Assembly (NCBI RefSeq): GCF_009796845.1
Contig: NZ_CP047025.1
Location: 1,736,001-1,800,000 of the forward strand
Direction: 5' to 3'
DNA length: 64,000 nt
Source of the DNA: Cobetia sp. L2A1
Lineage (GTDB): Bacteria; Pseudomonadota; Gammaproteobacteria; Pseudomonadales; Halomonadaceae
The position numbers and the translations under genes are program-made. Shown here in pieces: positions 1-6,497 of the stretch (position 1 is the stretch's first letter; the number at the start of each line of letters is the position of its first letter). Under the pieces are notes generated by a model. That model worked only from the letters and a program-made list of their open reading frames with translations, was not told the origin of the DNA and ran no database searches.

Positions 1-701
1 TCAAGAAGATCAGTCGTGAGTACGCTCCCGGCAGTCTGGATCGACTGGAATTGCTGCGTGTCGCTGAGGCGCGTGGCGTGCGCGTGTTCAGTCGCGCAGA
101 GAGCATGATTCGTCTGATCGATCGCCTGAGCTGCAGCGTGACGATGGCCAATGCCGGCATCCCGATGCCGGCCACGTTGGTGACGGAAGACATCACTGCA
201 GCCTGTGCCGCCGTCAAGCGCTACGGTGCTGCGGTATTCAAGCCCTTGTTCTCCACCAAGGCGCGCGGCATGTGCATCATCGAGGACACGGGTGATGACC
301 TGGCGCTGGAAGCTGCCGTCCGTGATTTCTCGGCCTTGCACCCGATGATGTATCTGCAGCAGCGTCTGAATCTGCCGGGGCAGGATTACGGCATGGTATT
401 CGTGGGCGGCCGCTACCTGTGCAGTTATGCACGCATGAGTGGTGGCGACGCATGGAATACCACCATCCATGCGGGAGGCAAGTACGCACCCTTCACGCCC
501 TCGGATGACCTGATCGCGCTGGCAGAACGCGCGCAGGCGCCATTCAATCTTGATTTCACCACGGTAGATGTCGCTTTGACCGATGATGGTCCAATCGTCT
601 TCGAAGTCTCAGCCTTCGGTGGTTTTCGCGGGGCGTTGGAGGGGGCAGGGGTGGATGCCGCCGCAGCCTATCTGGATCACGTGCTAGAGGTACTGTCATG
701 A
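1..701 (+). CDS. ATP-grasp enzyme of GAK type (5' partial)
   Basis: The frame is open from base 3 to the stop at 699-701, so the start lies outside the window and about 233 residues are visible. The visible part has an ATP-grasp look: an AVFKPLFSTKARG nucleotide-binding loop, an acidic strand IVFEVSAFGGFRG with the metal-binding Glu, and a preceding LQQRLNLPGQDYGMVFVGG segment as in RimK/LysX-type ligases. ATP-grasp ligases activate a carboxylate as acyl phosphate and join it to an amine. The next gene overlaps by ATGA and encodes an HprK-related kinase, and an amphi-Trp gene lies 4.5 kb downstream. That trio is the GAK set described in TIGRFAMs. The substrate is unknown. The family call rests on motif and neighbourhood, not on a search. 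Confidence 0.75.
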   Translation, partial: KKISREYAPGSLDRLELLRVAEARGVRVFSRAESMIRLIDRLSCSVTMANAGIPMPATLVTEDITAACAAVKRYGAAVFKPLFSTKARGMCIIEDTGDDLALEAAVRDFSALHPMMYLQQRLNLPGQDYGMVFVGGRYLCSYARMSGGDAWNTTIHAGGKYAPFTPSDDLIALAERAQAPFNLDFTTVDVALTDDGPIVFEVSAFGGFRGALEGAGVDAAAAYLDHVLEVLS

Positions 702-1978
702 ATGCCTCGCTACGCGAATCGATCACGACTCTGGGCAGCAGACCTTTCGCGCAATGGCGGGCAGACGAGTGCTTCGGCGCGTTGTCGCAAGGGACGGCGT
801 TGCTGGACGATGTCCTGTATTTCAAGGCGGAGGGCTTCCGTCTATGCCTGAAGACCGATCACCCTGAACTGCTCACGCGTCTTGCGGACTACTTCCGACA
901 TTGCGCGCAGATCCTGCCATCGACGAGGCTTCATGAGGTGGCCGGTCAGGATGTGCCGATCATGCATGCGCTGAGTGCACCACGACTGGAAGATTCCCCG
1001 CGGGCTGAAGCGTTGGGACTGGTGCCCGAGGCATTTGTTGATTGGCAGCCGGAGCCGGGCAAGACGCGACGCAAGGATGCGATCATCGAGCTTGTTGATG
1101 CTCGCCTGATCTTCAAGGTGCGCACCGGCATGTGCTTCTTGCGCAGCCGTGAACACAATCTCGCCTTTGGTCCCTGTGCTGACAACGAGAGCCAGATCAT
1201 CAATTTTCTACTGACGCAGCACATGTCTTACCTGCAGCATCAGGGCGGGTTGATCTGTCATGCCTCGGCGATTGCCAAGGGGGATCGCGCGGTCGCGATC
1301 GCCGCGTTCTCCGGCGGGGGAAAGTCCACCACCATGGTGGCAGCGCTGGAGCATCCCGCGCTTGATTTCATCAGCAATGACCGCGTCTTCATCATGCCGG
1401 CGTTGTCTGAGGAGTCGCTGGAAGAAGAGGTGCCGCAAGGCCATTTGCCATCAGACCTTTTGCTAGCAGGTCAGTCGCTGACAGGTCAGCCACCAAGAGT
1501 CTGCGGCATTGCCAAGTTGCCCCGTATCAATCCAGGTACCATGCTGAACAATCCCAGGTTGCGCCCCTTGTTGACGCCTGAGTGCGTTGCGGCATGTGAA
1601 GCCATGCCCATCGATGAGCTCTGGGATCTGGAAGACAAGCACGATCTCATCATTCCCGATGTCTATGGGCCGGATCGCATTCGTCCCAGCGGCATATTGT
1701 CTGCCGTGCTGATTCTCAATTGGACACGTGGCAGTCAGGCGCCTCTGGAGGTCAAGGAGGTGGACGTCATGGCGAATGCCTCACTGATGCGCGCCGTGAT
1801 GAAAACGCCGGGGCCTTTCCATCAGCTGTCAGACGGACGTTTCATCGCCAATGGCACTCTGCTGGATCCTGTCCCCTATCTGGCTCGCTTGAAGCAGGTG
1901 CGTGTCCTTGAGGTAACGGGTGGCGTGGATTTTGCCAGACTGATTGATGGTCATCTCAACCCCTTGCTGGAGGTATGA
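698..1978 (+). CDS. HprK-related kinase (GAK system, kinase B type)
   Basis: A 426-residue protein with a C-terminal P-loop kinase domain like HPr kinase: a CHAS motif near 187-190, a Walker A loop FSGGGKST at about 204-211, and SNDRV at 226-230, as in HprK-family proteins that phosphorylate protein Ser. It is longer than true HprK (about 310 residues) and has an unrecognised N-terminal region of some 180 residues. No HPr or PTS gene is near. The start overlaps the ATP-grasp stop in an ATGA, so the two are translationally coupled. In GAK loci a kinase of this type accompanies the ATP-grasp and amphi-Trp proteins. Whether it phosphorylates protein, peptide or a small molecule is not known. Confidence 0.8.
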   Translation: MNASLRESITTLGSRPFAQWRADECFGALSQGTALLDDVLYFKAEGFRLCLKTDHPELLTRLADYFRHCAQILPSTRLHEVAGQDVPIMHALSAPRLEDSPRAEALGLVPEAFVDWQPEPGKTRRKDAIIELVDARLIFKVRTGMCFLRSREHNLAFGPCADNESQIINFLLTQHMSYLQHQGGLICHASAIAKGDRAVAIAAFSGGGKSTTMVAALEHPALDFISNDRVFIMPALSEESLEEEVPQGHLPSDLLLAGQSLTGQPPRVCGIAKLPRINPGTMLNNPRLRPLLTPECVAACEAMPIDELWDLEDKHDLIIPDVYGPDRIRPSGILSAVLILNWTRGSQAPLEVKEVDVMANASLMRAVMKTPGPFHQLSDGRFIANGTLLDPVPYLARLKQVRVLEVTGGVDFARLIDGHLNPLLEV

Positions 1979-1980
1979 CC

Positions 1981-2955
1981 ATGCGCCATGAATTGCTGTT
2001 GATGCGCCATGGGAAATCCGATGGAACGGTAGCGACGGATGACTTTCACCGCCCCTTGAAAGAGCGTGGCAAGCGGGGTGCCCAACGCATGGGTGCCTGG
2101 CTGGCTCAGCAGGATCTCGTGCCTCAAGTCATCATGAGCTCGCCGGCACTGCGTGCGCGAGCGACTGCCGAAAAGTGTGTCAAATCGATGGGGCTGGGCG
2201 TCGATGTGATCGAGCTCAAGCCGGCGCTTTATTGCGAGGACGAAAAGCCGCTCTTGAAGACACTGAGGGCCTGCCCTGATAGCGTCACGCGCCTGATGGT
2301 GGTGTGTCACAACCCAGCGCTGGAAGATGCGGTGGTCTGGCTGACGGGCAAGCGTCCACGTCCGCCCAAGGCGACCAAGTTGGTGCCCACGGCAGCCGTC
2401 GTCAGGCTGAGCTTCGAGGGCAGCTGGGACTCACTGCGCTCCGGTCAGATGCAGCTTGAACTGATTCAGCGGGTGCGGTCCTTGCCGGAAGGATTTCCGT
2501 GGCCATTCCCGGGCGGTGATGAACGGCGTGAGCGTCCTGCCTATTACTACCAGCAATCTGCTGTCTTGCCGTGTCGCTGGGAGGATGGTCGCCTGGAAGT
2601 TCTGTTGATTGGTTCGTCTTCTGATCGTCATTGGAGCCTCCCCAAGGGCATTGTTGAGCCCGGTTTGAGTCCGCTGGCGTCTGCTCTCAAGGAAGCACAG
2701 GAGGAGGCGGGAATCGAGGGCGAGGCGCTTGAACACGCCCCTATCTACTTCACGTATGAGAAGTGGGGCGCGCCGGTCGAGGTCTGCCTGTTCGCGGTCG
2801 AGGTCGCGCGTGAGCTGGAAGAAAATGAGCGTGAAGAACCCCATCGGAGCCGTCGTTGGGTGTCCGCCGATGCAGCACCGGCGCTTCTTGGCAGACGCGA
2901 GCTTGGCGATGCGGTCAGTACCTTGGTGGGGTCGCTCGAGGCAAAAGCCTCATGA
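1981..2955 (+). CDS. SixA-type histidine phosphatase fused to Nudix hydrolase
   Basis: A 324-residue two-domain enzyme. Residues 1-150 are a SixA-like histidine phosphatase with catalytic RHG at 9-11 and the second His in VCHNP (H110). Residues 185-310 are a Nudix domain with a box at G223-I245. Catalytic E238, E241 and E242 are present, but the first Glu of the consensus is Leu (L229) and the Arg is Lys (K237). Mycobacterial MutT1 joins the same two domains in the opposite order and acts on diadenosine polyphosphates and oxidised nucleotides. Substrate here is open. The start at 1981 is preferred over the in-frame ATG at 1975 because GGAGGT sits six bases before it. The gene is coupled to the kinase upstream and overlaps the next gene. 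Confidence 0.85.
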   Translation: MRHELLLMRHGKSDGTVATDDFHRPLKERGKRGAQRMGAWLAQQDLVPQVIMSSPALRARATAEKCVKSMGLGVDVIELKPALYCEDEKPLLKTLRACPDSVTRLMVVCHNPALEDAVVWLTGKRPRPPKATKLVPTAAVVRLSFEGSWDSLRSGQMQLELIQRVRSLPEGFPWPFPGGDERRERPAYYYQQSAVLPCRWEDGRLEVLLIGSSSDRHWSLPKGIVEPGLSPLASALKEAQEEAGIEGEALEHAPIYFTYEKWGAPVEVCLFAVEVARELEENEREEPHRSRRWVSADAAPALLGRRELGDAVSTLVGSLEAKAS

Positions 2956-3725
2956 CAGGACCATTCCCTCGGCGTGTGGCATTGATACGCCATGGCGAAT
3001 ATCACCAACAGCCTGATACGCCGAGCGCCCATCAACCCCATCCATTGACTCGTGAGGGTGAGGTACATGCCGAAGCCGGAGCACAGGAGGTACTGGCGCT
3101 CTGTCATCTTCATGGTTGGCAGATCGAGGATTGCCTGCATAGCTCCACGCTACTTCGTGCATGGCAGACTGGGTCATTCATGGCTGCCACTCTCGAACGC
3201 GCGCTTGGGCAGCCTTTCAAACTCATCACACACGATGTGCTGTGCGAGCGGAGTCTTGGCAGTGCCGCTAATCTGACCGCCAGGCAGATTGAGCATGTCA
3301 TATCACAGGACCCGCGCATGTCGGCTCTGCCCAATGACTGGAAGTCGAACAGCCATTATCGTTTGCCCTTGCCAGGGGCCGAGTCACTGCTTCAGGCGGG
3401 AGAGCGTGTCGCAGCATATCTGCATGCCTTGCCGCTGCCTGCGTCATCCGCCTCACTGACATTGGTGATCGGTCACGGTGCGGCATTTCGGCATGCGGCG
3501 CATCTTCTTGGTGTGCTCGCGTTCGAGGAGATCGCACGTCTTAGCATGCATCATGGTCGTCCCGTGATCCTAGAAGAAGTGCTCCTGGAAGACGTATGCG
3601 AGGCTGAAGATGACAACGCACTTCAAGCTGCGAGTGCTCCTGAAGATGTGCGTACAACGACCCAGTGGCGTCATGTGGCGGGAGAGTGGAAACAACGCAA
3701 GTTACACGAATCTGCACGAGATTGA
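2952..3725 (+). CDS. histidine phosphatase family protein
   Basis: A 257-residue phosphoglycerate-mutase-like protein with the RHGE signature at 13-16 and a second conserved His in VIGHGAAF. It therefore should form a phosphohistidine intermediate and dephosphorylate a small molecule or phosphoprotein. The reading frame is open further upstream, but the ATG at 2952 overlaps the stop of the SixA-Nudix gene in an ATGA and directly precedes the family N-terminus, so it is the likely start. It is the second enzyme of this fold in the cassette; having two beside an HprK-like kinase suggests reversal or processing of phosphorylation. The last 50 residues are polar and unmatched to a known motif. 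Confidence 0.8.
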   Translation: MTGPFPRRVALIRHGEYHQQPDTPSAHQPHPLTREGEVHAEAGAQEVLALCHLHGWQIEDCLHSSTLLRAWQTGSFMAATLERALGQPFKLITHDVLCERSLGSAANLTARQIEHVISQDPRMSALPNDWKSNSHYRLPLPGAESLLQAGERVAAYLHALPLPASSASLTLVIGHGAAFRHAAHLLGVLAFEEIARLSMHHGRPVILEEVLLEDVCEAEDDNALQAASAPEDVRTTTQWRHVAGEWKQRKLHESARD

Positions 3726-3800
3726 GCCATGGCTCATCTGGTCAGAGGAGTCTTGTCATGGCTGGGGTGAGACACGATGCATGTATTGAGGAGCAAGTGA

Positions 3801-5111
3801 ATGACAGCCAATAGCCTGCGTCGTGCAGTGCCTCGTTATCGTGGCCCCGCTACCTACCTGGATGCCTTGCCGTCACGGGCTTGTGAATGGCCGCTCGAAC
3901 ACCAGCACACCAGCCCGAAGGATGAGACAGATGAATCTTCGAGAGATGCCAGTACTCGCCGTGGCACCTTTGGCAAGAAGGATTGGCCGTCTCGCGACAT
4001 CATCTTCATTTCGGATGCCCATGCAGATGCCGAAGCCTTCATTGCCTCACTCGTTGCCAGTGGGGGCGTTCATCTCACGTCCAAGGGCTCGCTGAAACTG
4101 ACAGTAAAGGGCAAGCAGTGCGTCTTCGTTATCGGCGGTGATTGTCTTGACAAGGGGCCGAGCAATATCGAGCTGCTGGAAGCACTTCGCTCACTCATGC
4201 TGAGTGGGGCACGTCTCAAGTTATTGGCCGGAAATCATGATATGCGCCTGATGCTGGCGCTGATGAGACTCAGCCATGACAACTCGGCACGTACCGATCA
4301 CTTGTTCGTGCGCATGGGCGCTAAGGGATTGGCGTTGCTGAAGGAGGTATTTGATCACTACCTGGTCGATAAACCGCGCGCCATGAAAAGTATTCCCTCA
4401 CGTGCCGAATGTCGGCGACGGCTATTTCCTGGCGCTGACTGGGCCGAAGATTTCCGGAAAACCGCGAAAGGCGTGTTGGAAGGGCATGCACTCGAAAAGG
4501 AAATAGCGCGGCTGGAATCCAAGATGTCGGGGTTCGAGAGAGCGTGTGAAAAACAGGGGCTGAGCTTGCGACAGACCTATGCCGCGGCCCTCAAGGCACA
4601 TGAGCTGTTTCTCAAGCCTGGCGGACGTTTTACCTGGTTTTTCGACGAAATGCGTCTGGCATATCGCAGTGGGGCCTTCCTGCATGTCCATGCGGGAGTC
4701 GATGATGCCTTTGCCAAGCGGCTCGGCCATCAGCGGGTTGCTGAGGTCAATCGCGAGTTTCAGCGCATTCTGCGTGAAGATCCCTTCGCCTTCTATTACG
4801 GTGAGTTGGCCAATGTGCTGAGAACCAAATACCGCAAGAGCGACATGCCGCTGACAGCAACAGGGGTGAAGCATCTGTCAAAGGTCGGCATACGCGCGGT
4901 GATGCACGGGCATGTGAATCATTGCAATGGGCAGCAACTGAACTGGCGGTGTGGACTTTTACACATAGAGGGCGATATCACGCTGGACCGCAATTCGCGC
5001 AGCAAGGAAGGTCTCAGTGGCGTGGGGATGGGCGCGACGTTGATCGAGGCTTGCGGTCGGATCATCGCTGTCAGCAATGACCATTGCGTGGTCAAGGTGT
5101 TCGTGCCCTGA
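3801..5111 (+). CDS. PPP-type metallophosphoesterase
   Basis: A 436-residue calcineurin-like phosphoesterase. Metal-ligand motifs appear in order: SDAH (D72, H74), GGDCLDKGP (113-120), GNHD (144-147) and a late MHGH. The GDxxDKGP and GNHD motifs are those of PPP-family Ser/Thr phosphatases and Ap4A hydrolases. An insert of about 150 residues separates GNHD from the last His motif, and the first 65 residues are polar and probably disordered. GAGGAG lies eight bases before the ATG. It sits 75 bases after the histidine phosphatase in the same direction, so it likely belongs to the same operon. Protein dephosphorylation and dinucleotide polyphosphate cleavage are both possible. Confidence 0.8.
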   Translation: MTANSLRRAVPRYRGPATYLDALPSRACEWPLEHQHTSPKDETDESSRDASTRRGTFGKKDWPSRDIIFISDAHADAEAFIASLVASGGVHLTSKGSLKLTVKGKQCVFVIGGDCLDKGPSNIELLEALRSLMLSGARLKLLAGNHDMRLMLALMRLSHDNSARTDHLFVRMGAKGLALLKEVFDHYLVDKPRAMKSIPSRAECRRRLFPGADWAEDFRKTAKGVLEGHALEKEIARLESKMSGFERACEKQGLSLRQTYAAALKAHELFLKPGGRFTWFFDEMRLAYRSGAFLHVHAGVDDAFAKRLGHQRVAEVNREFQRILREDPFAFYYGELANVLRTKYRKSDMPLTATGVKHLSKVGIRAVMHGHVNHCNGQQLNWRCGLLHIEGDITLDRNSRSKEGLSGVGMGATLIEACGRIIAVSNDHCVVKVFVP

Positions 5112-5181
5112 CATCACGCACCGGTGGCCAGTTGTGAAGCACGAGTCATGTATAAAGAGACGGGTGTGAAAGGAGGCGAGC

Positions 5182-5472
5182 GTGAAAGGCGATAAGCAGG
5201 AAAAGTCACTATTCCGACATGAATCACTGCAGTCCATCGAAGGTGTACAGGATATTCTCAAGGCCATCATCAAGGGCCTCGGCAAGGGACTTCTGTCATT
5301 CAGGGACGAAGATGGTGATATTCGGCTCACGCCACGCGGACTGCTCACACTCAAGGTGACAGCTCGGCGAGAGGATGACTATCATCGTATGGATATACGG
5401 CTATCGTGGCACGCACGGCCCGGGGCCAAGCGGAACAAGACGCTGAAGATTTCCGATGATGATTCACATTGA
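5182..5472 (+). CDS. amphi-Trp domain protein (GAK system)
   Basis: A 96-residue protein. Its C-terminal half alternates polar and hydrophobic residues in a strand ending in Trp (DIRLSW, W76), and it has RLTPRGLLTLKV before it. This is the pattern of the amphi-Trp domain, the small third partner of the GAK set; its role is not established. The start codon is GTG with a strong AGGAGG five bases upstream (5171-5176). The first 45 residues carry a predicted amphipathic helix. The gene lies 70 bases after the phosphoesterase. Small size and conserved company suggest a carrier, scaffold or substrate protein, but this is inference only. Confidence 0.75.
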   Translation: MKGDKQEKSLFRHESLQSIEGVQDILKAIIKGLGKGLLSFRDEDGDIRLTPRGLLTLKVTARREDDYHRMDIRLSWHARPGAKRNKTLKISDDDSH

Positions 5473-5552
5473 ATTCGTCACTCAAGGCGTCCGTCACGAC
5501 AGTATTGGTTAGATATCCACGTATTGTGGGCACGCTGAAGGGAGAGACAGTA

Positions 5553-6497
5553 GTGAATATCATCATGGATGTGGCCACCCACACGAAGCCTGATGCGAGC
5601 GGTTTTTCGCGAAGACTGACGCGTCGATTGTTCACACGTCTTGTGATGCTGGGGTCTATGACGCTGCTATCGGCACACGCCATTGCAGAGGTTCCTGCGG
5701 CGCTTTCACAAGACTCGGTTCGCACGATTGAGCAAGAAGTGGATGCCCGTATGGGTGTTGCCGTACTGGATACCGCTGATGGAACGCGCTTCACCTACCG
5801 TGGCGATGAACGTTTCCCGATGAGTAGTACGTTCAAGGCACTGGCGTGCGGGAGTATGCTGGCCTTGGTTGATGCCGAGCAAGAGTCATTGCAGCGTAAA
5901 GTGAAGATCAAGCCGGAAGCCGTTGTGACCTACTCTCCGGTAACGGAGACGCAAACCGAGGGTGATGGCTTGACCCTCTCCGAACTGTGTAATGCGGCCG
6001 TGACGATCAGTGATAACACCGCAGGTAATTTGATTCTCGATGCCGTGGGCGGGCCAGCAGGACTGACTGCGTATCTTCGCTCACTGGGAGATGACACAAC
6101 GCGTTTAGACCGCACCGAAACCTCGCTCAATGAAGCAACGCCTGGCGATGTGCGGGATACCACGACACCCAATGCCATGGTGACAACGCTGCAGAAGTTG
6201 CTATTGGGAGATGCGCTGTCGGAAGACTCGCGCATTAAACTGCAAAGCTGGTTGCTGGCGAACACGACGGGTGAAGGCAAGCTGCGAGATGCCTTGCCGG
6301 CGGGCTGGCAGATAGGCGATAAAACCGGTGGTGGTGGGCACGGCACCAATAATGATGTTGCGATTATTTGGCCGCCTGGTCACGCTCCGCTGATTGTTGC
6401 CGTCTATCTCACTGAGAGTGACGCGAGTTTGGCACAACGCAATGCCGCGATTGCGGGCATAGGACGTCTACTGGTGACTCAGGCGGGGCAGCGCTGA
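5553..6497 (+). CDS. class A beta-lactamase
   Basis: A 314-residue serine beta-lactamase. All class A motifs are visible: S92-T-F-K95 (Ambler 70-73), S153-D-N155 (130-132), E189-T-S-L-N193 (166-170) and K257-T-G (234-236). Cys99 and Cys146 fall at Ambler 77 and 123, so the usual disulfide can form. The N-terminus has a twin-arginine-like TRRLFTR followed by a hydrophobic stretch and AHA-IAE, so export to the periplasm, perhaps by Tat, is likely. The frame opens at 5469, but GTG at 5553 has GGGAGA eight bases upstream and is preferred; ATG at 5565 is also possible. It follows the amphi-Trp gene closely but nothing links their functions. The spectrum cannot be told from sequence alone. Confidence 0.9.
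   Translation: MNIIMDVATHTKPDASGFSRRLTRRLFTRLVMLGSMTLLSAHAIAEVPAALSQDSVRTIEQEVDARMGVAVLDTADGTRFTYRGDERFPMSSTFKALACGSMLALVDAEQESLQRKVKIKPEAVVTYSPVTETQTEGDGLTLSELCNAAVTISDNTAGNLILDAVGGPAGLTAYLRSLGDDTTRLDRTETSLNEATPGDVRDTTTPNAMVTTLQKLLLGDALSEDSRIKLQSWLLANTTGEGKLRDALPAGWQIGDKTGGGGHGTNNDVAIIWPPGHAPLIVAVYLTESDASLAQRNAAIAGIGRLLVTQAGQR

Follow-up and report, generated by a model that had tools for sequence, protein, structure and literature searches.

GAK is a widespread, named bacterial system whose function is unsolved. In the NCBIfam naming it consists of four families (TIGR04354-TIGR04357): the amphi-Trp protein, an HprK-related kinase (HprK_rel_B), an ATP-grasp enzyme (grasp_GAK) and a CofD-like protein (CofD_rel_GAK). 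A full-text literature search gave no paper on the GAK system, on amphi-Trp or on the HprK-related kinase. A comparable set of proteins occurs in Bacillus, where yvcI-yvcJ-yvcK-yvcL-crh together with HprK provides a Nudix protein, a CofD/YvcK-like protein, an HprK kinase and a small acceptor protein. The GAK locus described here, from Cobetia sp. L2A1, lies at the left end of a stretch of 64,000 nucleotides (nt), hereafter called the window (G000:C1:1736001-1800000, on a chromosome of 4.12 Mb). It shares with the Bacillus genes a Nudix protein, a CofD/YvcK-like protein, an HprK-type kinase and a candidate small acceptor, the amphi-Trp protein, whose predicted fold has one helix and four strands, in another order than the elements of HPr and Crh (mean predicted local distance difference test score, pLDDT, 81.7; none of the structural matches was telling). 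In lasso peptide clusters, HPr kinase homologues phosphorylate a C-terminal Ser of a peptide, according to an excerpt of PMC8498205; the Cobetia locus likewise encodes a small protein next to its HprK-like kinase, but none of the scanned proteins matched a lasso-peptide family, and the predicted fold of amphi-Trp also differs. The eukaryotic enzyme PPIP5K, as described in a part of PMC11836120, combines an ATP-grasp kinase with a histidine acid phosphatase assigned to branch 2. With eukaryotic inositol pyrophosphate signalling the locus has in common an ATP-grasp enzyme, a histidine phosphatase, a Nudix domain nearest to Ap4A hydrolases and DIPP among solved chains, and hints of control by phosphate, although its ATP-grasp enzyme is RimK/LysX-like and its histidine phosphatases are of branch 1 (PF00300). 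GAK as a named set is already known; the present analysis adds a fuller membership and a testable link to phosphate.

Six genes of the cluster are found in the window, all on the + strand. The first, encoding the GAK ATP-grasp enzyme (1..701; TIGR04356, 426.4 bits, cut-off 300), is cut by the left edge; the full gene (G000:C1:1735796-1736701) has a TTG start 205 nt left of base 1. It is followed by the genes for HprK-related kinase B, hereafter HprK-B (698..1978; TIGR04355, 259.7 bits, cut-off 200), a SixA-like/Nudix fusion, SixA-Nudix (1975..2955; PF00293, 48.1 bits), a branch-1 histidine phosphatase, HP2 (2952..3725; PF00300, 50.7 bits), a PPP-type/calcineurin metallophosphoesterase, MPP (3801..5111; PF00149, 21.9 bits, barely above the cut-off of 21.5), and the amphi-Trp protein with its FRHESLQ motif, which contains Ser15 (5182..5472; TIGR04354, 58.1 bits, cut-off 31). 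Directly upstream of the window, and overlapping the ATP-grasp gene, is a seventh member of up to 644 codons, encoding a fusion of PhoU with an aminoglycoside phosphotransferase (APH)-type kinase (PhoU-APH; G000:C1:1733872-1735806, likely start 1734028). All four NCBIfam models are passed in the genome, three of them within the cluster, and the locus is a GAK system. The preliminary description, made from the sequence alone, had given the same order, direction and overlapping or close starts for the six genes, had recognised the ATP-grasp, HprK-related and amphi-Trp proteins, and had proposed reading the DNA left of base 1 for the missing start and further members; both were found there.

Read directly from the sequence, the junctions ATP-grasp/HprK-B, HprK-B/SixA-Nudix and SixA-Nudix/HP2 are ATGA start/stop overlaps; the HP2 start was accordingly placed at the ATG at 2952, which overlaps the SixA-Nudix stop, and not at the TTG at 2856. 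The gaps ahead of the MPP and amphi-Trp genes are 75 and 70 nt. The first half of SixA-Nudix is called SixA-like only, its score with TIGR00249 being 59.0 bits, and that of the homologue in a relative (L036) 39.7 bits, under the cut-off of 74.5. The amphi-Trp protein is under the cut-off of the Pfam model PF20068 (23.3 against 27). In a protein search the MPP match reached upstream of its start (window 3780-3800) and was listed with two TGA codons inside; the reading frame 3801-5111 is itself open.

The layout was compared in GAK loci of Pseudomonadota, using 80 named loci, the best of 198 relatives in a species-genome collection by similarity to the Cobetia ATP-grasp enzyme, and the window's own locus; as they were picked by this similarity, the sample favours close layouts. 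Profile searches of the 81 loci found PhoU-APH in 79, HprK-B in 76, HP2 in 74, MPP in 72, amphi-Trp in 70 and SixA-Nudix in 47, some of the misses being due to contig ends. Excluding 19 loci whose flanks were too short left 62, of which 57 had the complete core of six genes (PhoU-APH, ATP-grasp, HprK-B, HP2, MPP and amphi-Trp), and 55 of these had the same order and strand. The five incomplete loci consisted of four without both HP2 and MPP and one without amphi-Trp. Joint conservation had been named beforehand as the point on which the grouping could be refuted, and the genes do occur together. SixA-Nudix was found at its Cobetia position in 27 of the 57 complete loci. Since HP2 and MPP are standard and SixA-Nudix is frequent, the hydrolase genes are ordinary company and not an enlargement of the GAK set, as had at first been thought. 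The statement that no such layout had been described holds for the literature searched in full text, but the same arrangement, lacking SixA-Nudix, is found on two plasmids of Rhodobacteraceae, where each gene already bears its NCBI name. Compared with the four families named by NCBI, PhoU-APH, HP2 and MPP are here equally constant members, SixA-Nudix and a small Nudix gene are frequent, and the CofD-like gene is unlinked in Cobetia.

The nearest named locus is that of Cobetia amphilecti, with 85 percent identity of the ATP-grasp enzyme. One locus (L068) is split, with PhoU-APH, ATP-grasp, HP2 and MPP in one group and HprK-B, SixA-Nudix and amphi-Trp in the other. An uncultured Tropicimonas (L098:11952-12596) has HP2 and MPP as fragments only, the other GAK genes being of full length, and was counted as complete despite this. 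Downstream of the operon, four loci have an extra histidine phosphatase gene and four an extra Nudix gene (L103:8013-8729, L063:15609-16193 and relatives). One contig (L039) is filed as a Halobacteria archaeon, and the ATP-grasp enzyme of its operon is 68 percent identical to that of Cobetia; it is probably a misbinned proteobacterial contig.

The GAK cluster is inherited as one block. In the Cobetia genome G057 the seven-gene block is missing, and both flanks align to those of G000 and G030, the distance between the aligned flanks being approximately 465 nt in G057 and approximately 8,186 nt in G030. The ATP-grasp enzyme was above the cut-off in 4 of 6 Cobetia genomes and in 19 of 151 Halomonadaceae genomes; at E 0.001 TIGR04356 matches 147 of the 151 via related ligases, and only the 19 above the cut-off were counted. 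Within these 151 genomes, MPP was present in exactly the same 19, HprK-B and the GAK-type amphi-Trp protein shared one set of 18 among them, and CofD_rel_GAK occurred in 18 of them plus five genomes that lack the ATP-grasp enzyme, so that the five families are nearly alike in distribution. At the locus of the odd one of the 19 (G002), only PhoU-APH, ATP-grasp and MPP are found.

The C-terminal half of the Cobetia PhoU-APH protein resembles small-molecule kinases of the APH type (PF01636, E 8.6e-10), and the N-terminal part of the fusion from L036 matches PhoU (PF01895, E 5.4e-10; TIGR02135, E 3.6e-10). A protein search started from the L036 fusion scored 8,000 candidates and yielded 1,711 clusters at E 1e-10; among the 120 clusters listed, 117 had both PhoU and APH and three had APH alone. 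The CofD-like gene of Cobetia (G000:C1:1505876-1507009; TIGR04357, 523.3 bits, cut-off 340) is approximately 227 kb from the cluster. Clustering of flanking genes revealed a divergent gene in 40 of the 81 loci and, in 32, a small Nudix gene immediately upstream; the two members tested from the divergent cluster are CofD_rel_GAK (524.0 and 552.6 bits, same cut-off). The small Nudix gene was not found in Cobetia with one query, a result which is weak on its own. The CofD-like protein matches PF01933 with 134-135 bits and is nearer to the YvcK type (TIGR01826; solved chains UPF0052). On one side of the Cobetia gene (G000:C1:1497001-1516000, L114) are genes for an ArsJ-associated GAPDH, arsJ and a chromate transporter, and on the other an ABC-transporter operon with HAD-like and phosphodiesterase-like genes, labelled by eye. 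No other GAK gene was seen around the CofD-like gene in the five genomes lacking the ATP-grasp enzyme; in three of them, from another genus (G011, G080 and G088; L171-L173), it follows the gene for a large protein of approximately 1,050 residues.

A link to phosphate is suggested by the PhoU domain of relatives, by the DNA upstream of the operon in some of them and by neighbouring genes. In its first definition, the Pho box of E. coli consists of two direct repeats of 7 nt with four nucleotides between them, the best-conserved motif being CTGTCAT, according to an excerpt of PMC4415409. At 78 loci, stretches of at most 500 nt spanning the first gene's start were scanned with the E. coli Pho box, with a score of at least 11.5 as threshold, which 1.6 percent of random stretches reach. 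On the + strand, 8 of the 78 loci had a box with the right spacing, compared with 0-4 at twelve other spacings, and none had one on the - strand. Decoys made by permuting the half-site columns gave a mean of 0.64 loci, and 2 of 300 reached the observed count; because two half-site columns are both T, a permutation can recreate the motif, and these two, which were kept in, may be such copies. The p-value is weakened by the scan having been refined in three steps. The eight loci (two each from Marinomonas and Tropicimonas, one each from Marinobacterium, Phaeobacter, Fluviibacterium and Zhongshania) include close relatives, so the number overstates the independent cases. A Pho box was also present in two of 13 further stretches (L161 in this set repeats L099), both from one genus (L163, 13.0; L164, 12.8), approximately 75 nt upstream. 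An earlier weighted score applied to a wider stretch had given 11 of 79 at the right spacing and 2-7 at ten others.

Genes of phosphate metabolism also adjoin some of the operons. In Ketobacter (L049) the operon is located between pstC-pstA-pstB-phoU and phoR-phoB; phoU is at the flank of L036, L039 and L063, ppk at L051 and a phoR-like kinase gene at L052. The same neighbour search with six other E. coli genes, some of them partial, gave one locus (L092; purM, purN). The short version in G002 adjoins a PstS-family protein (135.3 bits, under the cut-off of 206.6), PstC, PstA, PhoU and ArsJ, and PstB-like and GAPDH-like frames were recognised by eye between these genes. Taken as Pho boxes above chance, the scan hints at control of GAK by the Pho regulon in relatives of Cobetia. 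Against this, 70 of the 78 loci have no Pho box at the threshold of 11.5, and counting plain mismatches on both strands left 4 of 78 loci at p ≤ 0.05, which is chance level. Upstream of the Cobetia cluster there is no convincing Pho box, the best match of 9 of 14 positions being background, and L002 is not among the loci scoring at least 11. Furthermore, pho, pst or ppk neighbours occur at only 6 of 81 loci, with some of the matches modest.

The motifs HGDFN.DN of the APH domain, the P-loop of the HprK-like kinase (Walker A, SGGGKST, invariant in 30 sequences), RHG and GHGA of the histidine phosphatase, and GDC.DKGP and GNHD of MPP are conserved, so that the proteins are likely to be active enzymes. 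Outside its own model, the ATP-grasp enzyme scores best with tetrahydromethanopterin glutamate ligase MptN (123.2 bits) and the RimK family (83.0 bits), and the solved chains matching it at E 0.01, 11 in all, belong to ligases of the RimK/LysX type or to other ATP-grasp ligases. PPIP5K is absent among those 11, and by these matches the enzyme is of the RimK/LysX-like ligase type and not of the PPIP5K type. The solved chains nearest to the Nudix half of SixA-Nudix are Ap4A hydrolases for the Cobetia protein and DIPP for that of L036, with weak scores in both cases.

Of 398 Pseudomonadota genomes, 16 have HprK-B and 21 have amphi-Trp, with both in 13, the kinase only in three and amphi-Trp only in eight. 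Two of the kinase-only genomes are affected by contig ends: in G183 the kinase itself is cut, and in G303 MPP runs off the contig, so that any amphi-Trp gene following it would be out of sight. Ser15 is present in 77 of 79 GAK amphi-Trp copies (70 of 70, 5 of 7 from L161-L167, with L161 again repeating L099, and 2 of 2 further). The eight copies from amphi-Trp-only genomes (L153-L160), a second kind of amphi-Trp protein found in 8 of the 398 genomes, all without HprK-B, have no Ser at this place, and FRHESLQ is also missing there. From the alignment, Ser15 would be the best candidate for the residue on which HprK-B acts, although unproven; the C-terminus of the protein is variable.

We tentatively propose, at somewhat less than even probability, that GAK is a phosphate-status system which makes and unmakes a phosphorylated and ligated product, with HprK-B acting on amphi-Trp. 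PhoU-APH would read the phosphate status and phosphorylate a small molecule, and the ATP-grasp enzyme would attach an amino acid, or a group like it, to a carboxylate on the resulting product. HprK-B would phosphorylate amphi-Trp, with Ser15 of FRHESLQ as the best candidate site, and amphi-Trp may then serve as receiver or carrier, while SixA-Nudix, HP2 and MPP would strip phosphates and so reset the system. The substrates and the direction of the chemistry are those we infer from the predicted enzymes. This proposal is favoured because of the conserved motifs, the ligase-type ATP-grasp enzyme and the Nudix half nearest, by weak scores, to Ap4A hydrolases and DIPP. In the preliminary description, the making and unmaking of a phosphorylated or peptide-modified intermediate had been suggested; a phosphorylated one, as a hypothesis, agrees with the gene list. 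With the link to phosphate, the fuller membership and the evidence that the block is inherited as a whole, a cluster that was anonymous becomes a testable hypothesis, and if the link is true, phosphate management in marine bacteria gains an unstudied arm of two kinases, a ligase and several phosphoesterases.

Beside the upstream regions without Pho boxes, some properties of the proteins speak against the proposal. In the scans with NCBIfam and Pfam at E 0.01, the PhoU domain was undetected in the Cobetia protein itself. HprK-B matches no model of HPr kinase proper: its only NCBIfam matches are HprK_rel_B and HprK_rel_A, and it has no Pfam match at E 0.01. Ser15 is replaced by Ala in G289 and G305, both of which have HprK-B, and 5 of the 23 genomes with the CofD-like gene keep it without the operon.

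A different possibility, which we consider the less probable but by no means negligible, is that the product of GAK is a small cofactor or a natural product. A compound bearing a phosphate or phosphodiester and decorated with amino acids would then be built jointly by the CofD-like protein, the RimK/MptN-like ligase and the APH-like kinase, on the model of CofD and the glutamate ligases for F420 and methanopterin, with the phosphoesterases recovering side products and HprK-B and amphi-Trp regulating or carrying. The likeness of the ATP-grasp enzyme to the MptN, RimK and LysX ligases and the company of CofD_rel_GAK, with its PF01933 match, in all but one of the grasp_GAK genomes agree with such a role, but the nearness of the CofD-like protein to the YvcK type does not, nor do the five genomes having it without the operon or G002, where the ATP-grasp enzyme occurs without it. 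Somewhat more doubtful is that amphi-Trp itself is modified, receiving phosphate from HprK-B and residues from the ATP-grasp enzyme, with phosphatases removing the mark and no small molecule taking part. The phosphorylation of a peptide Ser by the kinase homologues of lasso clusters (same excerpt of PMC8498205) is a precedent, and the joint occurrence of HprK-B with the GAK amphi-Trp protein in the same 18 of 151 genomes, with Ser15 marking the GAK type, is as expected. G002, however, has the ATP-grasp enzyme, MPP and PhoU-APH without amphi-Trp, so that the ligase is not tied to it, and the Ala in two kinase-bearing genomes and the variable C-terminus also speak against it.

A clean-up role, in which the system would remove faulty or toxic phospho- or arseno-metabolites when phosphate is low and arsenate present, alongside efflux by ArsJ, is unlikely. 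The Cobetia CofD-like gene has arsJ and its GAPDH gene as neighbours, the short version in G002 has arsJ, and ArsJ occurs in 16 of 19 GAK genomes compared with 71 of 132 others (Fisher p 0.013), but it is widespread in any case (87 of 151), the genomes are related to one another, and the idea would leave two kinases and a ligase without explanation. Arsenic as the main theme was rejected: although ArsJ is encoded beside GAK genes in Cobetia and G002, none of the 81 flanks has it at E 1e-10. Very doubtful, as an analogy, is a convergent bacterial counterpart of the eukaryotic inositol-pyrophosphate messenger, in which the Pho-regulated kinase and ATP-grasp enzyme would make a highly phosphorylated messenger, the DIPP/Ap4A-like Nudix, histidine phosphatases and the PPP-type enzyme would degrade it, PhoU would sense phosphate and a phosphorylatable amphi-Trp would receive; the ligase type of the ATP-grasp enzyme and the branch of the phosphatases differ from PPIP5K, as described above. 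That the genes have unrelated functions and merely lie side by side is scarcely credible, being refuted as far as sequence can do so by the six core genes of the complete loci and the matched presence over the Halomonadaceae.

Anti-phage defence was also considered and rejected, as PADLOC matched none of the seven proteins at E 0.01. The composition gave no sign of foreign origin (GC 57.9 percent in the block, 57.4 percent in the window). Two neighbouring genes are outside the unit: that for an FMN-dependent dehydrogenase, on the opposite strand further left of PhoU-APH, and a chromosomal class A beta-lactamase gene directly after the unit (window 5469-6497, + strand; NF033103, 338.2 bits, cut-off 200). 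The beta-lactamase stretch aligns in G057, the genome without the unit.

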